Shown here: in pieces, positions 34,876 to 45,455 of the stretch
How the letters are laid out: each line of letters starts with the position of its first letter
How positions within the stretch are numbered: position 1 is the stretch's first letter
Assembly: GCA_027624335.1 (NCBI GenBank)
Contig: JAQBWV010000018.1
Coordinates: forward strand, 1-46,518
Direction: 5' to 3'
DNA: 46,518 nucleotides
From: Planctomycetota bacterium
Lineage (GTDB): Bacteria; Planctomycetota; Planctomycetia; Planctomycetales; Planctomycetaceae
Notes under the pieces: model-generated
Databases searched by the model: none
Told to the model about the DNA's origin: nothing
What the model saw: the letters and a program-made list of their open reading frames with translations, nothing else
Translations under genes and position numbers: made by a program

Positions 34876-36927
34876 ATGGCAGTCGATTCTTATTCGACAT
34901 CCGATCCTGCACCGCCTCCAGATAACAAACCGAAGGTGCTCGCACAGGGAATTGCTGCGTTACGTCAGGATGCACTCCCGTCGGTCGTCGTGTTCCTGGT
35001 GGCATTGCCGTTGTGTATGGGGATTGCAATTGCTTCCGGAGTTCCGGTGGCCGCCGGTTTGATTACGGGCATCGTCGGCGGACTTGTTGTCGGAACGCTG
35101 GCGGGTTGCCCCTTGCAGGTCAGTGGCCCGGCGGCGGGCCTGACCGTGATCGTTTTCGATGTCGTTCAACGTTTCGGATTTGAAATGCTGGGCATCGTCG
35201 TGCTGATGGGCGGTTTCATCCAACTCCTGGCCGGCGTGTTCGGACTCGGCCAGTGGTTTCGCGCGGTCTCACCCGCCGTGATCAAGGGCATGCTGGCGGG
35301 AATCGGTGTGCTGATTTTTGCCAGTCAGTTCCACGTCATGGTGGACGATAAGCCCAAAGGCAACGGTATCACGAACCTGCTGACGATCCCTGCTGCTGTC
35401 AGCAAAGCCATTGAGTGGCCCAACTACGCATCGACCGAAAAGCGTCGTGCCCGGACCAGGGCGATGGTTGAAATCGGCGAACTGCACCGCAGACAGGCGG
35501 CGATCGCCGAGCGTGTTGTCGAACGACTGCCGGACCATTCCACCGAGGAAGAGTTGTCGCTGGAAACCGCCGAACAACTTGCTGCCGAAGCTGGAGCTCT
35601 GAAGATGCTGTTGCCGGACCAGCAGAAACTTACGGCAGACACAGAGAGAATCATCAACTCCTTGAGTGAATTCGAAAACCGCTTCAGAAAAGGGGAACGA
35701 TCAAAACGAGTCGTTGCCGCGTGCTCTCCCGCGATCGAATTGTCTCGAATCGCAAGTCAGGAACTGAGTGAAGGGCACGTTCGTAACGCGGCAAAAGCGC
35801 AGGCTGATTCAGTTGCAGCACTCGACGATCTCGCGAACGCATTGAAGAACCACGCATTTGCGGCGCAGATCGGAATGCTGACGATTGCGATCATCCTGCT
35901 GTGGCAGGCCTTCGCGCCGAAGAAGGTCAAAGTCCTGCCGGCTCCACTGATCGCCGTCGTGATCGCCGGAGGGCTTGCAACCGCGGTCAGTATGCCAGTC
36001 CTGTATGTCGAAGTTCCGGACAACCTATGGAGCGAGATTCACTTCCCGACCTGGGCGATGCTGACGGATGCACCGTGGACGGCACTCGTTCAGTCGGCCC
36101 TGGTCGTGGCAGTCGTGGCAAGCGCCGAAACGCTGTTGTGTGCGACGGCGGTGGATCAGATGCATCAGGGGCCGCGTACTCGATACAACCAGGAATTGAC
36201 GGCTCAAGGCATCGGCAACATGGTGTGTGGAATCCTGGGTGCGCTGCCCATGACCGGTGTCATCGTGCGATCGTCGGCCAACGTCGAATCCGGAGGAAAG
36301 ACACGGATATCCGCAATCCTGCATGGAGTCTGGCTGCTGGTCTTTGTCGTGTTTCTGGGATTTCTGCTGCGCATGATTCCCACGTCCGCGCTGGCAGCGA
36401 TTCTTGTCTATACCGGCTACAAGCTGGTGAATCCGAAATCGATCAGGGAATTGCGAGCGTATGGATGGGGCGAAGTCGCCATTTACTCAGCTACCGTAGT
36501 GACGATCGTCGTCACTGATCTGCTGACGGGCGTCATCGTCGGCATCACGCTTGCCGCGGCCAAGCTGCTCAACGCGTTTTCGCAACTGGATGTCGATCTT
36601 GCGATTGCTGACGGGACCGACAAAACCGTCCTGACGCTGACCGGAGCAGCGACGTTCGTACGACTGCCCACCCTCGCAACGAAACTTGAACAGGTCCTCC
36701 CCGGAAGCGAGCTGCACGTCGACATCCAGCATCTCGATCACATCGACCATGCGTGCCTGGACCTGCTGACGAACTGGTCCCGGCAGCATGAAACGACCGG
36801 CGGTCGACTCGTCATTGACTGGAAATCACTGCACTCGCGGTTTCGCGCGGAAAAGAGGAATCCCGCCAGCAACTCCCAGGAAGCGAACATCGACAAACAT
36901 GCCACACCGGCTGAATCCGGCCATTGA
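34876..36927 (+). CDS. SulP-family anion transporter with inserted helical domain
   Basis: 683 residues. The SulP core is clear: PLCMGIAIASGVPVAAGLIT, GCPLQVSGPAAGLTVIV, AVSPAVIKGMLAGIGVLI, ETLLCATAVDQMHQGPRTRY and MTGVIVRSSANVESGGKTR. A STAS domain follows at about 570-650 (LHVDIQHLDHIDHACLDLLT). Between TM segments, residues about 182-322 form a hydrophilic helical insert not usual for the family. SulP members located beside carbonic anhydrase are often bicarbonate transporters (BicA-like); sulfate cannot be ruled out. STAS domains are regulatory. TAAGGAAACACAACG precedes the start. Confidence 0.9.
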   Translation: MAVDSYSTSDPAPPPDNKPKVLAQGIAALRQDALPSVVVFLVALPLCMGIAIASGVPVAAGLITGIVGGLVVGTLAGCPLQVSGPAAGLTVIVFDVVQRFGFEMLGIVVLMGGFIQLLAGVFGLGQWFRAVSPAVIKGMLAGIGVLIFASQFHVMVDDKPKGNGITNLLTIPAAVSKAIEWPNYASTEKRRARTRAMVEIGELHRRQAAIAERVVERLPDHSTEEELSLETAEQLAAEAGALKMLLPDQQKLTADTERIINSLSEFENRFRKGERSKRVVAACSPAIELSRIASQELSEGHVRNAAKAQADSVAALDDLANALKNHAFAAQIGMLTIAIILLWQAFAPKKVKVLPAPLIAVVIAGGLATAVSMPVLYVEVPDNLWSEIHFPTWAMLTDAPWTALVQSALVVAVVASAETLLCATAVDQMHQGPRTRYNQELTAQGIGNMVCGILGALPMTGVIVRSSANVESGGKTRISAILHGVWLLVFVVFLGFLLRMIPTSALAAILVYTGYKLVNPKSIRELRAYGWGEVAIYSATVVTIVVTDLLTGVIVGITLAAAKLLNAFSQLDVDLAIADGTDKTVLTLTGAATFVRLPTLATKLEQVLPGSELHVDIQHLDHIDHACLDLLTNWSRQHETTGGRLVIDWKSLHSRFRAEKRNPASNSQEANIDKHATPAESGH

Positions 36928-37007
36928 GAACCAGCGAAATTACCACTCGTGCGACACCCAGTCACTTACGTGTTCCGCACCAACCATTCCATCGTAAGAA
37001 GCCGGCC

Positions 37008-37382
37008 ATGAGATTGAGTATTCGCAGCCATCTCATCGAGTTGACCGACGATTTGCGTGAGACCGTTGAACGCAGGATTTACTTCGCACTAAGTCGCTTC
37101 GGGCCTCGGATCGAGCGAGCGACGGTCACACTCGAAGATATCAGCGGGACGCGCGGAGGTGTCGTTCAGCGATGCCGGATTGTCATCAAGCCTCAACGAG
37201 GTGATGAATTGATTGTGATCGCGACCGACGCCGATCTGCACGCAGCGATTTCGTTTGCCGCGGACCGTGCCGGTCGAGTTGTGCAGCGGGAACTGGAACG
37301 CCGCCGCACGGACCGACGGCAGATGCCGCGGACACCGGAAGCTCCGGCAGAACCACAGGATGGCACGGTTTCTGCAGACTGA
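37008..37382 (+). CDS. HPF/RaiA-like ribosome-associated protein
   Basis: 124 residues from the ATG at 37008. Residues 1-100 match the S30AE fold of ribosome hibernation factors: an opening strand, ELTDDLRETVERRIYFALSR, a central IERATVTLED, and the closing helix AISFAADRAGRVVQRELERR. Basic residues are kept. The C-terminal 25 residues are Pro/Glu-rich and there is no long-form domain. Such proteins silence ribosomes in stress or stationary phase. Its place between two transporters suggests that the series is expressed in slow growth or stress. Confidence 0.72.
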   Translation: MRLSIRSHLIELTDDLRETVERRIYFALSRFGPRIERATVTLEDISGTRGGVVQRCRIVIKPQRGDELIVIATDADLHAAISFAADRAGRVVQRELERRRTDRRQMPRTPEAPAEPQDGTVSAD

Positions 37383-37449
37383 GTCCCAACGAAAAGAAAC
37401 ACTCACTGGTCATGGACATGCCATGACCAATTCTGATTTGAGGTAAGTG

Positions 37450-39510
37450 ATGAAACGTCTGCGGGAAGCACTGGACAGTGGATCGATCCTTCTGGACGTC
37501 GATGCACGCGACATCGAGTCAGCACTGAGGAAGACGCTCGACTCACTCGTGGCGAATGGACGGATTCCGGCTGAGCACCGTGGTGAAGTGGAATCGGCAC
37601 TGCTGGAGCGCGAAGGCGAAATCTCCACGGCGATCGGTTACGCGATGGCAGTCCCTCATGCCTATCTCGATGTGCTGCGGGAACCGATCATCGTCTTTGT
37701 GAGACTGGCACGTCCGATCAACCTTGGCGCACCAGACGGAATTCCGACACGTTTCATGTTTCTCCTGCTGGGCCCGACGGGGACAACGGCCGATCACCTT
37801 GAGACGCTGGCCGCCATCGCGCGGGTCATGTCGAATGATGAATTCCGTTACGAGGCACGCACCGCGCGCACGCAGTCCGACCTCGTCGCTGCACTCGACG
37901 CCTTCATCGCTCGAACGGCATTTGTTCCTCAGGAAGTTTCCGTCGAGTCAACGGAAGGGCTCAATTACACAGGTCGACTGTTCGGTGGGTTGCGTGAAGA
38001 TGTCCGTCGCCGAGGGGCGCACTACATCAGTGACTTCCGCGACGGGCTTAGTCCGAAGAGTCTCAGCGCGACACTGTTTCTGTTTTTTGCGTGTCTTGCT
38101 CCGGCCGTCACCTTTGGTGGCATCATGGGTGCTCAGACAGACGGCGACATCGGCGTCGTCGAAATGCTGGTCGCTTCGGCCGCGTGTGGAATCGTTTATG
38201 CACTGTTCGCCGGTCAGCCCCTCGTCATCCTCGGGGGAGTGGGACCGCTACTGGTGTTTACGGCGATTCTTTTCCGACTGTGCGGAGATTTGAATCTACT
38301 ATTTTTACCTGCATACGCGTGGGTCGGATTCTGGACGTCGTTGTTCCTGATTATCCTCGCGGCCACCGACGCCAGTTGCCTGATGCGGTTCTTCACCAGG
38401 TTCACCGACGAAATCTTTTCGGCCCTGATGTCGCTCATCTTTATCTACGAAGCGATCCGAGCGATTGTCGGCATCTTTCGCCGCAGCTTTGCAGACGAAT
38501 CAATCAGCCATGACGTGGCGTTCCTTTCCCTGATTCTATCCATCGGCACGTTCTACATCGCCGTCAGTCTGTCGCAGTTTCGGCGCAGTCACTACCTGCT
38601 GCCGTGGATGCGGGAATTCCTTGCGGACTTCGGCCCGATGATCGCGCTGGTGGCCATGACGCTGATCGCCTGGCTGCTGCGTGACGATGTCGCCACGGCG
38701 TCGCTTCAGGCTCCGGACACGTTGAGAACGACCGCTGAGCGCAGCTGGCTGGTCGATCCTCTGGCCGCTCCGCTCTGGGTCAGATTCGCGGCGATCGGTC
38801 CCGCCATTCTGGCCACCGTACTGGTGTTTCTCACGCAGAATATCACGGCCAGACTGATCAACAGCGCAGATCATAAGCTGCAGAAGGGGCCGGCTTACCA
38901 CCTGGACCTGGCTGTTGTCGGCGGCCTGATTGGAGTCTGTTCGCTGTTCGGACTCCCATGGCTGGTCGCGGCGACGGTGCGTTCGCTGGCGCACGTACGC
39001 GGTCTGGCGACGATGGAAGAAGCGATCTCTCCGGACGGCACGACGCGCGAGCGGGTGACTCACGTCGAAGAAAACCGTGTGACGGGCCTGGCCATCCATG
39101 TGCTCATTGCGCTGTCGCTGCTGTTGTTACCGGCGCTCAAGGTCGTGCCGATGTCCGTGCTGTACGGCATCTTTCTATTCATGGGAGCGGTCTCGCTGGG
39201 AGGTAATCAGTTTTTTGAACGTATCACTCTGTGGCTGACAGACCCCGACCTTTACCCGCGGACGCACTACGTCCGGCAGGCTCCTGTGAAGGTGATTCAC
39301 CGATTCACACTGCTGCAACTGGCCTGCCTGGCAGCTCTGTGTGCGGTCACGCTGAGTCCCTACAAATCATTGCGGCTTTCGTTCCCAATGTTCATCGCCC
39401 TGCTGGTTCCCATGCGATTTCTGGCGGCACGATGGTTCGACGAGAAATACCTCAACCTACTGGATGCTGACGAAACACCGCGCGAGGAAGAAACTCACTG
39501 GTCCGCCTGA
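37450..39510 (+). CDS. PTS EIIA domain fused to SLC4/band 3-type bicarbonate transporter
   Basis: 686 residues from the ATG at 37450 (GAGGTAAG upstream; a GTG one codon earlier is possible). Residues 1-160 form an EIIA_Man/Fru-Ntr-like domain that keeps the phospho-histidine motif AMAVPHA (His70) and DHLETLAAIARVM. Residues about 175-670 match SLC4 anion exchangers: TFGGIMGAQTDGDIGVVEML, GGVGPLLVFTAILF, ITARLINSADHKLQKG, YHLDLAVVGGLIGVCSLFGL and PWLVAATVRSLAHV, then VLYGIFLFMG. Eukaryotic SLC4 proteins also have an EIIA-like N-terminal cytoplasmic domain. I infer bicarbonate transport, with possible control by EIIA phosphorylation. Confidence 0.88.
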   Translation: MKRLREALDSGSILLDVDARDIESALRKTLDSLVANGRIPAEHRGEVESALLEREGEISTAIGYAMAVPHAYLDVLREPIIVFVRLARPINLGAPDGIPTRFMFLLLGPTGTTADHLETLAAIARVMSNDEFRYEARTARTQSDLVAALDAFIARTAFVPQEVSVESTEGLNYTGRLFGGLREDVRRRGAHYISDFRDGLSPKSLSATLFLFFACLAPAVTFGGIMGAQTDGDIGVVEMLVASAACGIVYALFAGQPLVILGGVGPLLVFTAILFRLCGDLNLLFLPAYAWVGFWTSLFLIILAATDASCLMRFFTRFTDEIFSALMSLIFIYEAIRAIVGIFRRSFADESISHDVAFLSLILSIGTFYIAVSLSQFRRSHYLLPWMREFLADFGPMIALVAMTLIAWLLRDDVATASLQAPDTLRTTAERSWLVDPLAAPLWVRFAAIGPAILATVLVFLTQNITARLINSADHKLQKGPAYHLDLAVVGGLIGVCSLFGLPWLVAATVRSLAHVRGLATMEEAISPDGTTRERVTHVEENRVTGLAIHVLIALSLLLLPALKVVPMSVLYGIFLFMGAVSLGGNQFFERITLWLTDPDLYPRTHYVRQAPVKVIHRFTLLQLACLAALCAVTLSPYKSLRLSFPMFIALLVPMRFLAARWFDEKYLNLLDADETPREEETHWSA

Positions 39511-39594
39511 GTCCGGCGTCTTCTCGGCTACCCATGCCAACGACGTCGTTGAATTACCTGGCTCCTTACTCAGATCACACGAATGGTCACGCCC

Positions 39595-40419
39595 ATGTTG
39601 AAACGAATCCATGTGGGACTTGGAGGGACACCGTTCACTCTAACAGCCATCCAATATTCAGTGGAACTGGCGCAGGCTCATCAGGCGGAACTTCTGGGAA
39701 CGGCAATCATCAATCACAGCCGAATGATAGCACTCTCAAAGACCTCCGAGGCGGGGACCGACATACTTGACGAACATCGCCGACTTGAAGCCATCGACAC
39801 GCGGCAGAAGCAAGCCATCGCGACTTTTGAGTCCAGGTGCAAAGGCTCTGGAATCAATCACTCAGTAACACGAGCAAGTGGCGATCCGTTCGAGAAGATG
39901 ATTTCTCTCACTCGGTACCATGACCTGATGATCTTCGGCCTGCGCAGCCTGTTCGAATTCGATTTTCTGGAAACGGACGGAGCGGGGCCGTTGTCTCGGC
40001 TCGTGTCGTCCGGTGTCCGTCCAATTCTCGCGGTTGCAAAGGAGTATCGCCCGATCCGTCAGGTCCTACTGGCCTACAGCGGATCGATGGAGTCAGCTTC
40101 CGCCATCAAGCGATTCGTGACGATGCAGCTCTGGTCCGATCTTCGTTTCAAAATCGTCACCTTTGAGCATCCCAACGATATCGCGCAAACACTACTAAAC
40201 GAGATGGCAGGCTACTGCCGGGCTCATGGCCACGATGTTGAGTGCGAGCATGTGGAGGGTTCCCCAAAACAGCAGCTCCTGCAGCACGCCACGGGGTGGA
40301 ACGCAGACCTGATTGTCCTGGGCAACGGATCGAAACGCCTGTGGCTGAAGAAGCTTTTGGGAGATACTGCCATGAATGTCATTCGGCACGCTGACATTCC
40401 TCTGTTCGTAAGCCAGTAG
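39595..40419 (+). CDS. Tandem universal stress protein
   Basis: 274 residues from the ATG at 39595 (a second ATG at 39583 adds four residues). Two UspA domains: residues 1-150 (MLKRIHVGLGG.. to VRPILAVAKEY) and 155-274. The second keeps the nucleotide-binding signature LGNGSKRLWLKKLLGDTAMN and ends HADIPLFVSQ. Usp domains bind ATP or other adenine nucleotides, and the Usp domain of KdpD is known to bind c-di-AMP. It is followed 120 bases later by a diadenylate cyclase gene, so a receptor role is possible but not shown. Confidence 0.88.
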   Translation: MLKRIHVGLGGTPFTLTAIQYSVELAQAHQAELLGTAIINHSRMIALSKTSEAGTDILDEHRRLEAIDTRQKQAIATFESRCKGSGINHSVTRASGDPFEKMISLTRYHDLMIFGLRSLFEFDFLETDGAGPLSRLVSSGVRPILAVAKEYRPIRQVLLAYSGSMESASAIKRFVTMQLWSDLRFKIVTFEHPNDIAQTLLNEMAGYCRAHGHDVECEHVEGSPKQQLLQHATGWNADLIVLGNGSKRLWLKKLLGDTAMNVIRHADIPLFVSQ

Positions 40420-40539: not shown

Positions 40540-41895
40540 GTGAATCCTGTTGAACTTGTTCAATCCATGAGAGTCATCGAGCTGGCCTCCAGAGTCCGGA
40601 CGGACGCGATGCGCGAACTGGTCGACGCGGTGGACTGGGCTCAGGATGGCGTACTGCCGGGTGATGTGGTGCAGGCTCTCGAAGAACGTGAAGCAACTGC
40701 CCAAACGGTTGTCGATGAAGGTCTGGCGCTGCCTCATGCCATGATTGAATGGGACGGCGAATTCCACATTGTGCTTGGACGCAGCCAGGCTGGCGTGGAG
40801 TACGCTGCGAAGGGCGACGCGGTGCGGATAATCGTCCTGCTGGTGGTCGGGAACGGTCGGGCTCAAACACACCTGGAATTACTGGCTGCGGTCGCGGCTT
40901 TATTGCAGGGTCACGAATTCCGGCAGAACCTCTCCGCTGCGGAGAACGTGGATGTCGTTAGACAACTGCTTGCGGAAAGTGCGGTACAACTGGAGAAACC
41001 GGAACTGACTGCCGTGGCAATCCCCCGTCAAAGTTTGATGGTTGCCTGTCACGCCGTACAACTGGCCGAATCATTGACTGCCCAGGCTTTGTTGCTGGCC
41101 ATGGATCACGGCCAGCGGATTCCCTGGGAACCATTAAACGCATGGCCGGGCCGTCTGCTTGTGATCACTGCCGGAAGTCGTCACGACACTACACACATCC
41201 GACCTGACACTCACGTGTTTGATATTGCTCACGCCAGCCTGTCCCGCATGGATCGAGCCAACCTGGGACTGCTGCTCGCTGCGGCCAATGGTCTGGTGGA
41301 TCACGATCGGGAAGTTGTCTGTATCACTGGTTCGCAGGAGCAGCCTCTGGACAGCATTACGGTCACTCGACCAGCCGCCCATTTCGCCGCTGTGTTCTCC
41401 GAGCCGGAAGGGCACACCACATCGTGTATTGCTCCAGCAGTCATCCTGCGAGTCCTTTCACTGGCCATCGAATTGGCAGCGGAAGGCAGGGAAGCACATC
41501 CGATTGGTGCTGCGTTCGTTATTGGTGACACGCGGCAGGTCATACGCCACACGCAGCAATTAGTCCTTAACCCGTTTCACGGATTCGCGAGACGGCTGCG
41601 AAATATCCAGGATCCCAGCCTGACAGAAACAGTCAAGGAATTCGCGTTGATCGATGGTGCGTTCGTGGTCGAGGCGGATGGTTCGATCCGAAGTGCTGGA
41701 ACGTATCTGACGCCGACATGCCGTGTGAAGAATCTGGCCGGTGGACTGGGGTCTCGACACCAGGCAGCCGCGGCGATCACTGCCGAAACACGCGCCATCG
41801 CGGTCACAGTCAGCCAATCCACCGGAACGGTCACTCTGTTTCAGGGAGGACACGTCGTCCTGACACTGGAGCGAGCGGCCTTCACGCGGTGGTGA
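40540..41895 (+). CDS. EIIA domain fused to CdaZ-like diadenylate cyclase (c-di-AMP synthase)
   Basis: 451 residues. I use the GTG at 40540; the ATG at 40567 (MRVIEL) is an alternative. Residues 1-150 form an EIIA-like domain with ALPHA at His66 and THLELLAAVAALLQ. Residues about 155-295 resemble the pyruvate-kinase C-terminal-like domain of archaeal CdaZ, including VVCITGS and DSITVTRPAAHF. Residues about 310-450 are a DisA_N/DAC domain: IDGAFVV (Asp372, Gly373, Ala374), GSRHQAAAAITAET (Arg406, His407), then SQSTGTVTLFQGG. The third position of the usual RHR motif is Gln, but the RHxxAA pattern is kept. It would make c-di-AMP from two ATP. Confidence 0.82.
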   Translation: MNPVELVQSMRVIELASRVRTDAMRELVDAVDWAQDGVLPGDVVQALEEREATAQTVVDEGLALPHAMIEWDGEFHIVLGRSQAGVEYAAKGDAVRIIVLLVVGNGRAQTHLELLAAVAALLQGHEFRQNLSAAENVDVVRQLLAESAVQLEKPELTAVAIPRQSLMVACHAVQLAESLTAQALLLAMDHGQRIPWEPLNAWPGRLLVITAGSRHDTTHIRPDTHVFDIAHASLSRMDRANLGLLLAAANGLVDHDREVVCITGSQEQPLDSITVTRPAAHFAAVFSEPEGHTTSCIAPAVILRVLSLAIELAAEGREAHPIGAAFVIGDTRQVIRHTQQLVLNPFHGFARRLRNIQDPSLTETVKEFALIDGAFVVEADGSIRSAGTYLTPTCRVKNLAGGLGSRHQAAAAITAETRAIAVTVSQSTGTVTLFQGGHVVLTLERAAFTRW

Positions 41896-42011: not shown

Positions 42012-45000
42012 ATGCCAGGTTTCACACGACTGCTTGCCGCCAACCGCAGCGAGATTGCCATCCGAATTTTCCGCAGCGCCCATGAACTGGGAATTCGCAC
42101 CGTGGCGATCTATTCGCACGAAGACCGCCATGCACTGCACCGGTTCAAGGCGGATGAGGCGTATGAAGTCGGCAAAGCGGGCGAGCCGATTCAGGCGTAC
42201 CTCGATATTGACGCCATCATCGCGCTGGCGAAGAAGCACGAGGTCGACGCGATTCATCCGGGTTACGGATTTCTGTCCGAGAATCCGCACTTCGCGCAGG
42301 CGTGCGCTGACGCCGGGATCGTGTTTGTCGGACCTCAGGTTCAGACACTGAACCAGCTGGGTGACAAGATCTCTGCTCGCAAAATCGCCGAACGAGCGCA
42401 GGTGCCCGTGCTGGGCGGGGGCGGCAGTGCGATCCGCGATGCGACGCAGGGAGAACGGCAGGCCGCAAAAGTCGGCTATCCGGTGATTCTCAAAGCAGCG
42501 CACGGCGGGGGCGGACGCGGGATGCGAGTGGTACGCAAGGCATCAGAGTTTGCGTCTGCGTTTGATCAGGCGAGACAGGAATCACTTACGGCGTTCGGCA
42601 GTCCGGATATCTTCGTCGAAAAATTCATCCAGCGCGCCCGGCACATCGAGGTTCAGCTTCTGGGAGACAAGCACGGGAACCTCGTACATTTGTATGAACG
42701 CGACTGCTCAGTTCAGCGGCGGCATCAAAAGGTGGTCGAGATCGCTCCGGCACCGAACCTCGATCCCGAAGTTCGGCAGGCGCTGTGCGACGCGGCGCTG
42801 GCCATCGGGCGCGAAGTGAAATACGAGAACGCCGGCACGGTCGAGTTTCTCGTGGATGCCGAGACGAATCAGTTCTATTTCATCGAAGTCAACCCGCGGA
42901 TTCAGGTGGAACACACGGTGACCGAGCAGGTGACCGGAGTCGACATTGTCAAGTCGCAGATCATGGTCGCGCAGGGCGTGAGACTGGATGACCCGAGCAT
43001 CGACCTGCCGTCGCAGGAGTCGATTGCCACTCACAGCTACGCCATACAATGTCGAATCACGACGGAAGATGCATCGAACCGATTCATGCCGGACTATGGG
43101 CGCATCGCTCACTATCGATCGGCGGGCGGACCGGGAATTCGACTGGACGCCGGCACGGCGTTTTCCGGCGCGGTCGTGTATCCGTTTTACGATTCGCTGC
43201 TGGTCAAGGTCACAGCAACTGCGAGAGAGTTCTCCGGAGCCGCTCGCCGTGTCGAACGCTGCCTGCAGGAATTCCGCATCCGCGGCGTAAAGACGAACAT
43301 TCCGTTTCTGCTGAAACTGGTCATGCATCCCACGTTCATGGAGGGCGACTGCACGACCGGATTCATCGACGAGACACCCGAATTGTTCGACTTTCCGGCG
43401 CGTCAGGACCGGGCAACGAAGCTGCTCACGTACCTGGCGGAGACAACCGTCAACGGCAATCCGCTGGTCAAGGACCGCCCGCTTGCAACACGCCGCGTGC
43501 CGGCTCCTCTTCCGTCGGGCGGTGACTCGACCGCGGTCCCGGACGGCATGCGCCAGAAGCTGAAGAAGCTGGGACCGGAAAAGTTTGCCCAGTGGCTTCG
43601 CAAACACAAACCGCTGCTCATCACGGACACCACGTTTCGCGATGCTCACCAGTCGCTGCTGGCCACACGCATGCGCACGCATGACCTGCTGCAGATCGCA
43701 GACGCTTACGCACGACTTTGCCCCGAACTGTTCTCGATCGAAATGTGGGGCGGAGCGACGTTCGACACGTCGATGCGGTTCCTGAAGGAATGCCCGTGGC
43801 AACGCCTGGTCGAAATGCGCGAGCGGATTCCCAACGTCCTGTTTCAGATGTTGCTGCGCGCGTCCAACGCCGTCGGCTACACGAACTACCCCGACAACGT
43901 GGTCAAGGCATTCGTGGCTGAAGCGGCGGGCGCAGGGATCGACGTGTTCCGCGTCTTCGATGCGCTCAACTGGGTGCCCAACATGAAGATCGCCATGGAT
44001 GCGGTCATCAAAAGCGGCGCCATCTGCGAGGCAGTCATCTGCTACACCGGCGACATTCTCAATCCCGGCCGACCGAAGTACGACCTGAAGTACTATGTCG
44101 CGATGGCGAAGGAACTGGAGCGGATGGGCGCACACATTATCGCCATCAAGGACATGGCCGGCCTGTGCAAGCCGTACGCCGCCGAACAGCTCGTCAAGAC
44201 GCTCCGGCAGGAGGTCGGTCTGCCGATCCACTTCCACACGCACGACACGGCCGGTATGCAGGCCGCGTCGATCATGAAGGCGTCCGAAGTCGGGCTGGAC
44301 ATTGCCGATGCCGCCATGGCTCCGCTGTCCGGAGGCACGTCGCAGCCGAATCTAAACACACTGGTGGAAGCTCTGCGGTCCACGGATCGAGACACGGGCC
44401 TGCGTTCCGAACATCTCGATTCGATCTCCGACTACTGGCGAGCCGTCCGCGAGTTCTACACGCCGTTCGAGAGTCCCGTGCTGCCGGCCGGAGCCGACCT
44501 GTACCGACACGAAATGCCCGGCGGCCAGTACACCAACCTGTACCAGCAGGCACGGGCACTCGGGCTGGCCGATCGCTGGAGCGAGGTCTGCAATATCTAC
44601 GCGGACGTCAATCAGATGCTGGGCGACATCGTCAAGGTCACGCCGACATCAAAAGCCGTCGGCGACCTCGCTCTGTTTCTGATTGCCAACGACATGACGA
44701 CGGAAGACGTGGTGTCCGGAACGCGCGAGCTGGCCTTTCCGCAATCAGTCGTCGATCTGGTCAGTGGTCGTATGGGACAGACGCCGGGCGGCTTTCCCCG
44801 CAAAGTCCGTGACAGGATTCTGCGCGGCGAAAAACCCGTTCGAGGTCGTCCTGGTGCGAACCTGCCCGCCGCCGACTTCGAACAGACTGCCGGGAAGATC
44901 CGACCATTGCTGGACCATGAACCATCGCGCCGGGAAGTCGTCTCGCACCTGCTTTATCCGCAGGTCTTCACCGACTTCTCCAGGCACCAGCGAAAATACA

Positions 45001-45455
45001 TCGACACCAGCATCCTGCCCACGCCGGCATTTCTCTACGGTCTGGAACCCGGTGAAGAGATCGCTGTCGACATCGAACCCGGCAAGACGTTGATCGTTCG
45101 TTTTCTAACTGTGGGCGAACCGCATGAAGACGGCACGCGCACCGTCTTCTTCGAACTGAACGGACAACCGCGCGAAGTCACCATCACCGATCGTGCTCTG
45201 GAGCCGGATGCGCCGCGCCGCCCGAAGGCCGATCCGGGCAACCCGGCGCATGTCGCCGCCACGATGCCCGGCATGGTCGTCAACGTGGCGGTCCAGGCGG
45301 GAGACAAGGTCGTCAAAGGTCAGAAACTGCTGATGCTGGAAGCCATGAAAATGCAGACGATCGTCGCGGCCGAGCGTGACGGAACAATTGCCGAGGTCCA
45401 CGTGCGGCCGGCCACTCAGGTCGAAACCGGAGACCTGCTGATCGTTCTGGAGTAA
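42012..45455 (+). CDS. pyc: Pyruvate carboxylase
   Basis: 1147 residues, full length. Biotin carboxylase domain about 1-455 (LLAANRSEIAIRIFRSAHEL, HPGYGFLSENPHF, AAHGGGGRGMRVV, FYFIEVNPRIQVEHTVTEQ). Carboxyltransferase domain about 535-830 (LLITDTTFRDAHQSLLATRM, WGGATFDTSMRFL, HTHDTAGM). A C-terminal biotinyl domain carries EAMKMQTIV with the biotin Lys at 1113. It carboxylates pyruvate to oxaloacetate using ATP and bicarbonate, replenishing the TCA cycle. The 116 bases after the cyclase gene hold no obvious terminator. In Listeria and Lactococcus this enzyme is a direct c-di-AMP target. Confidence 0.96.
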   Translation: MPGFTRLLAANRSEIAIRIFRSAHELGIRTVAIYSHEDRHALHRFKADEAYEVGKAGEPIQAYLDIDAIIALAKKHEVDAIHPGYGFLSENPHFAQACADAGIVFVGPQVQTLNQLGDKISARKIAERAQVPVLGGGGSAIRDATQGERQAAKVGYPVILKAAHGGGGRGMRVVRKASEFASAFDQARQESLTAFGSPDIFVEKFIQRARHIEVQLLGDKHGNLVHLYERDCSVQRRHQKVVEIAPAPNLDPEVRQALCDAALAIGREVKYENAGTVEFLVDAETNQFYFIEVNPRIQVEHTVTEQVTGVDIVKSQIMVAQGVRLDDPSIDLPSQESIATHSYAIQCRITTEDASNRFMPDYGRIAHYRSAGGPGIRLDAGTAFSGAVVYPFYDSLLVKVTATAREFSGAARRVERCLQEFRIRGVKTNIPFLLKLVMHPTFMEGDCTTGFIDETPELFDFPARQDRATKLLTYLAETTVNGNPLVKDRPLATRRVPAPLPSGGDSTAVPDGMRQKLKKLGPEKFAQWLRKHKPLLITDTTFRDAHQSLLATRMRTHDLLQIADAYARLCPELFSIEMWGGATFDTSMRFLKECPWQRLVEMRERIPNVLFQMLLRASNAVGYTNYPDNVVKAFVAEAAGAGIDVFRVFDALNWVPNMKIAMDAVIKSGAICEAVICYTGDILNPGRPKYDLKYYVAMAKELERMGAHIIAIKDMAGLCKPYAAEQLVKTLRQEVGLPIHFHTHDTAGMQAASIMKASEVGLDIADAAMAPLSGGTSQPNLNTLVEALRSTDRDTGLRSEHLDSISDYWRAVREFYTPFESPVLPAGADLYRHEMPGGQYTNLYQQARALGLADRWSEVCNIYADVNQMLGDIVKVTPTSKAVGDLALFLIANDMTTEDVVSGTRELAFPQSVVDLVSGRMGQTPGGFPRKVRDRILRGEKPVRGRPGANLPAADFEQTAGKIRPLLDHEPSRREVVSHLLYPQVFTDFSRHQRKYIDTSILPTPAFLYGLEPGEEIAVDIEPGKTLIVRFLTVGEPHEDGTRTVFFELNGQPREVTITDRALEPDAPRRPKADPGNPAHVAATMPGMVVNVAVQAGDKVVKGQKLLMLEAMKMQTIVAAERDGTIAEVHVRPATQVETGDLLIVLE

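Follow-up and report, generated by a model that had tools for sequence, protein, structure and literature searches.

The question raised by this locus is whether a diadenylate cyclase can take its controlling signal from a phosphotransferase-system (PTS) EIIA domain carried in the same polypeptide chain. The signals that control diadenylate cyclases are a standing question, and to our knowledge almost nothing is known of those acting on the CdaZ/DacZ class, while the product, c-di-AMP, is a main nucleotide signal for potassium and osmotic balance. In the window, by which we mean the whole stretch of 46,518 nucleotides that was analysed, the first-pass annotation had read three domains in a single frame, namely an EIIA-like domain with His66 in an ALPHA motif, a middle domain resembling the pyruvate kinase C-domain, and a DAC domain with DGA and RHxxAA motifs, the last two akin to CdaZ. 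Domain search and structure prediction, which it had proposed as checks, were both run and agreed on EIIA, DacZ_P and DAC. The best explanation, which we consider probable, is a CdaZ/DacZ-type cyclase whose activity would be set in cis by the N-terminal EIIA domain.

The open reading frame begins with GTG and comprises 451 codons with no internal stop, and its start is supported because aligned homologues begin at the same point. Its features are as follows:

40540–41895, forward strand: EIIA–DacZ_P–DAC fusion gene (hereafter EIIA-DAC), 451 residues, homologues aligned end to end.
40540–40983, forward strand: PTS EIIA domain (Fru/Mtl/Ntr type), residues 1–148, from a Pfam match over residues 40–146 (3.2e-18) and a Foldseek match to EIIANtr 2a0j.
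41050–41370, forward strand: DacZ_P or pyruvate-kinase-C-like middle domain, residues 171–277, from Pfam and a fold match to pyruvate kinase.
41476–41853, forward strand: DAC (diadenylate cyclase) domain, residues 313–438, from Pfam and fold.

In Pfam, PTS_EIIA_2 (PF00359) scored 66.5 bits against a cut-off of 27, and the C-terminal domain lay well over the same cut-off for DAC (PF02457; 5.7e-23, 81.2 bits), with DacZ_P barely over its own (1.2e-6, 28.7 bits, cut-off 27.4). The motifs were found where they had been placed, with His66 in 'LALPHA', DGA at residues 372–374 and 'RHQAAA' from residue 406. The nearest sequences in the PDB were PtsN proteins for the EIIA part and CdaA proteins for the DAC part. 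The AlphaFold2 model of the protein, computed from 29 homologues, had a mean pLDDT of 82.8 and a pTM of 0.57, so the relative placement of the domains in it is uncertain. Its EIIA part matched EIIANtr 2a0j in Foldseek with a TM-score of 0.81, normalised by target. The model also matched CdaA and DisA folds and the pyruvate kinase C-domain, the last of which is taken to be the predicted middle domain. The kinship of the middle and C-terminal domains with CdaZ was borne out by Pfam, sequence similarity, fold and tree.

Residue conservation was counted in an alignment of 35 EIIA-DACs from six families, and the EIIA positions were assigned by alignment to E. coli EIIA-Mtl (1a3a), in which Arg49, His65 and His111 have what we take to be established active-site roles:

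40687–40689, forward strand: Arg50, aligned with Arg49 of EIIA-Mtl; Arg in 35/35.
40735–40737, forward strand: His66, which is predicted to accept the phosphate and aligns with EIIA-Mtl His65 and with the PtsN PH; His in 35/35.
40870–40872, forward strand: His111, second active-site histidine, aligned with His111 of EIIA-Mtl; His in 32/35, Tyr in 3/35.
41653–41661, forward strand: DGA motif, residues 372–374; Asp and Gly in 35/35, Ala in 34/35.
41755–41760, forward strand: Arg406-His407 of the RHR motif, whose third residue is Gln here; Arg and His in 35/35.

The EIIA site and the DAC site appear to be under joint selection, since Arg50, His66, the Asp-Gly of DGA and the RH pair are invariant and His111 is kept in all but three proteins. 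Mean pairwise conservation was somewhat lower in the EIIA part (67%) than in the DAC part (77%). In most EIIA-DACs of the window's family the RHR motif ends in Gln, whereas most of those from other families have the canonical Arg; planctomycete DacZ proteins vary at this position (W, H, A, S, T, Q, R). Where stand-alone DacZ has the Glu of its 'VSES' motif, this protein has Gln426, and Gln stands there in 32/35 EIIA-DACs. At both positions the protein differs from CdaA. Loss of the VSE Glu was considered as the sign of a dead enzyme and found not to be decisive, because His or Arg occupies this position in the structurally characterised DisA proteins.

Among 398 genomes of the class that were searched, 28 genomes from 11 genera gave a match over both the EIIA and the cyclase parts, all of them in the window's own family, and nearly all the others matched the DacZ part only. 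When 392 genomes of the phylum were scanned, a further 11 with EIIA-DAC emerged, in five other families, at 32–37% identity; Pfam confirmed all three domains in five of the other-family proteins, with DacZ_P falling slightly under the cut-off in two of three window-family members scanned alongside. The full-length architecture is thus kept at 32–63% identity across dozens of genomes and, on sequence grounds, lies far beyond chance. In a tree of the DacZ-DAC part, the EIIA-DACs of the window's family formed one clade (99/97) and were not sisters of the normal DacZ proteins of their own genomes, with which they share 32–34% identity. Once the other families were included, a larger clade (100/100) took in EIIA-DACs together with some stand-alone DacZ proteins, and within it the EIIA-DACs branch at several places. 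Either one gain followed by later loss of EIIA, or two gains, would explain this tree.

A phosphorelay that could feed the EIIA domain is encoded by the host. EI and HPr were present in 21/21 genomes tested, that of the window among them, and the search for PTS genes suggested by the first-pass annotation located both side by side in this genome with PtsN just upstream, in the order hpf-ptsN-HPr-EI. The EI phosphohistidine site (GGxTSHTAI) and the HPr histidine are both present. The HPr of this genome (C410, L070:5092) reads GLHMVPC, i.e. the His is kept and the usual nearby Arg is replaced by Val; in other genomes of the family this residue is R, S or V. Searches for EIIC (PF02378) and EIIB (PF02302), limited to these two families and with positive controls, found neither in 8/8 EIIA-DAC genomes. 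The 598-residue EI has three PEP-utiliser domains only in Pfam and no GAF domain, and for this reason the host system is not a PTSNtr in the strict sense. Given EI and HPr and the absence of EIIB and EIIC of the searched families, the best reading is that the host PTS would be regulatory, passing phosphate to several EIIA-tagged outputs of which c-di-AMP synthesis would be one.

The other EIIA proteins of EIIA-DAC genomes comprise PtsN, HTH_17-EIIA and Na/H-exchanger-EIIA fusions and, in some, an HCO3-transporter-EIIA, and EIIA appears to be a reused input module in these genomes. The HTH_17-EIIA protein (about 250 residues; L084, L087, L092 and others) was found in 7/8 EIIA-DAC genomes examined and is likely a PTS-controlled DNA-binding regulator. 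The Na/H-exchanger fusions (about 590 residues; L091, L088, L089) place EIIA on ion antiporters too. Two HPF-like genes lie near EIIA genes, one in the window at 36924–37382, by the HCO3-transporter EIIA, and one at L070:3635–4111, by ptsN.

According to the preferred explanation, phosphate from PEP would pass through EI and HPr to His66 of the EIIA domain, whose phosphorylation state would change how that domain is seated on the DacZ_P-DAC part. This seating would permit or block the head-to-head meeting of two DAC domains, the pairing that DAC catalysis needs (PMC8573169), and hence the conversion of two ATP into c-di-AMP. The c-di-AMP level would then be set by the cellular PEP/pyruvate state, or by several EIIA proteins competing for phosphate. 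We consider it likely that HPr phosphorylates His66 and, with less assurance, probable that this phosphorylation controls the cyclase. The direct phosphotransfer control suggested by the first-pass annotation is strengthened by the invariant Arg50-His66 pair and the largely conserved His111, by the many genomes in which EIIA-DAC is the sole DAC (see below), and by the lack of EIIB and EIIC of the searched families in eight genomes. As to its sign, most known K+ targets of PtsN are bound by the unphosphorylated form, and by analogy we lean weakly towards restraint of the cyclase by unphosphorylated EIIA.

The alternative that survives best, rather unlikely in our judgement and partly compatible with control in cis, is that EIIA serves for docking or dimerisation and works in trans, in the way that PtsN acts on TrkA, YcgO and KdpD, bringing the cyclase to K+ or other ion transporters, its phosphorylation state being of little weight for the cyclase itself. 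It draws on the proteobacterial PtsN, which controls K+ proteins by direct binding and for which no phosphoacceptor is known (PMC13104625). The fusion of other EIIA domains to ion transporters in these genomes points the same way, as does the control of K+ by c-di-AMP and by PtsN, each in its own groups. A pure scaffold would, however, need no Arg50-His66, yet all 35 proteins keep both, down to 32–37% identity.

Whether the cyclase is active was addressed by counting PF02457 in all 28 EIIA-DAC genomes of the window's family. EIIA-DAC was the only match in 19/28, was accompanied by one weak partial DAC match in 4/28 (G153, G181, G187, G256), and stood beside a normal DacZ in 5/28, among them G057, with a further DAC too, and the genome of the window, where c-di-AMP might also come from the second, stand-alone DacZ. 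Several of the sole-DAC assemblies are nearly closed (G061, G081, G101, G205), some of them consisting of one or two contigs at 99–100% completeness, and wherever EIIA-DAC is the sole DAC it must supply any c-di-AMP that the genome has. Of note, a CdaA-like DAC whose N terminus has hydrophobic segments is present as well in some members of the family (G002, L148; G133, L149). One sole-DAC genome, G041, contains a c-di-AMP riboswitch (RF00379; 57.1 bits, gathering threshold 38), and this motif was absent from 8/9 EIIA-DAC genomes tested. The G041 element (L133:1501–1667) overlaps the 3' end of the ORF of a TrkH-like K+ transporter and lies upstream of tatC. A riboswitch makes little sense without its ligand, and this one is the best indirect evidence for EIIA-DAC activity. 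From the sole-DAC genomes, one of them with the riboswitch, we infer that EIIA-DAC very likely makes c-di-AMP.

The same data bear on a further alternative, in which a degenerate DAC would only bind nucleotide or c-di-AMP, and the c-di-AMP or ATP state would control EIIA as a phosphate sink. In its favour are the Gln residues found, in this protein and most of its family, where RHR has its third Arg and VSE its Glu. We nevertheless hold it improbable, in view of the 19 sole-DAC genomes and the riboswitch in one of them, the invariant DGA Asp-Gly and RH, the RHR retained in most other-family EIIA-DACs, and the His or Arg that DisA proteins carry at the VSE position. Against cyclase control in cis, our preferred explanation, count the second DacZ of this genome, the RHR and VSE changes, the Val for Arg in HPr, the eight riboswitch-free genomes and the lower conservation of the EIIA part.

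SulP, HPF, EIIA/HCO3, Usp, EIIA/DAC and PYC genes follow one another in the same direction, with gaps from −4 to about 120 bp, and the closest neighbours of EIIA-DAC are:

37447–39510, forward strand: EIIA–HCO3/anion-exchanger transporter with an EIIA domain of its own and thereby a further EIIA-tagged output, from Pfam and a family genome search; not a conserved partner.
39583–40419, forward strand: universal stress protein, tandem by its length, from Pfam; not conserved beside EIIA-DAC.
42012–45455, forward strand: pyruvate carboxylase (PYC), from Pfam; without the two Tyr at the L. lactis PC positions.

In the transporter, the EIIA partner is a membrane domain of the SLC4-type HCO3/anion exchangers (Band 3 family); relatives occur in 29/130 genomes of the family, and a second copy lies on contig C59 of the window's genome. 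This run could suggest a bicarbonate or anaplerosis unit, in which PTS state and c-di-AMP would jointly control HCO3 uptake (SulP, EIIA-HCO3) and the adjoining PYC. Its tight, co-directional spacing would fit, and HCO3, PEP/pyruvate and c-di-AMP all meet in pyruvate carboxylase, which is a c-di-AMP target in Listeria and Lactococcus. We nonetheless rate such a unit as very improbable, given that none of the window's neighbours immediately adjoins EIIA-DAC in the 27 other loci, that the EIIA-HCO3 gene sits elsewhere in other genomes, away from EIIA-DAC, and that the window PYC has Glu and Ile at the two Tyr positions of L. lactis PC, which we take to be its c-di-AMP site. PYC was demoted as a c-di-AMP target on account of these two replacements; R. 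etli PC lacks both Tyr as well.

More generally, conserved operon partners were absent from the 28 EIIA-DAC loci, which showed only local synteny between near relatives and overlapping antisense ORFs, and a promoter and terminator scan gave nothing above chance. The bicarbonate/Usp/PYC context is particular to the window's genome and, pending evidence to the contrary, is regarded as incidental. In families f73 and f94, the EIIA-DACs (L162, L164, L165) seemingly have a common neighbour, a gene starting IGVCSWSL..., and there the local context may be conserved, unlike in the window's family. Finally, a false fusion produced by misassembly or a frame error, which the 481 contigs of the host genome might suggest, has a practically negligible probability and, judging by the homologues, is refuted by the recurrence of the full-length architecture in 28 + 11 genomes, single-contig ones among them.

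The component domains are known; their join, EIIA to DAC, was not found in any paper of the literature searched, whose coverage was partial, so that an earlier mention is possible. Likewise, no c-di-AMP study in planctomycetes was found in the searchable literature, and c-di-AMP goes unmentioned in a 2026 PTSNtr review (PMC13104625). On balance, we somewhat favour the view that EIIA-DACs form a class of c-di-AMP synthases wired in cis to the PTS, in which HPr-dependent EIIA phosphorylation would set c-di-AMP and which would have replaced every other DAC in a number of genera within a single planctomycete family. If this is true, the PEP/pyruvate state would be the main input to c-di-AMP and ion homeostasis. 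The fusion would tie c-di-AMP to the carbon and energy state that the PTS senses and would join PtsN-type K+ control and c-di-AMP, signalling systems described separately so far. With its input in the same chain as the cyclase, it is directly testable with EI, HPr and PEP, and it points to planctomycetes as a group for c-di-AMP study.

Compared with known systems, EIIA-DAC has the catalytic DAC fold in common with DisA, CdaA, CdaS and CdaM and none of their partner domains, since Pfam finds only EIIA, DacZ_P and DAC. CdaZ/DacZ (DacY/DacZ; Euryarchaeota and some bacteria) likewise has a PK_C-like domain followed by DAC, keeps DGA and RH, and is similar in sequence over both domains; EIIA-DAC differs by the additional N-terminal EIIA of about 150 residues. 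It reached 132.5 bits against the NCBIfam DacZ equivalog (NF041371), below the cut-off of 430, and appears to be a relative of, rather than the same as, the haloarchaeal equivalog, whose H. volcanii member produces c-di-AMP and is essential (PMC6741144). PtsN (EIIANtr) and EIIA-Mtl/Fru share with it the EIIA fold (TM-score as above, by target) and the Arg-His-His site, but occur alone or fused to EIIB, EIIC or HPr, whereas here the fusion is to a cyclase. Planctomycetales are reported to have PTSNtr genes (PMC13104625). Both PTSNtr and the incomplete PTS of Brucella resemble the host system in having EI, HPr and EIIA without the EIIB and EIIC searched for, and the hpf-ptsN neighbourhood is found here too; the EINtr/PtsP of PTSNtr has a GAF domain, unlike the EI of this genome, and the outputs of this permease-less PTS are EIIA-fused enzymes, transporters and regulators. 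In E. coli, the state of EIIA-Glc controls adenylate cyclase in trans. The likeness is that an EIIA state sets the synthesis of an adenine second messenger; the E. coli system employs another EIIA family and cAMP, whereas EIIA-DAC would act in cis, on c-di-AMP.
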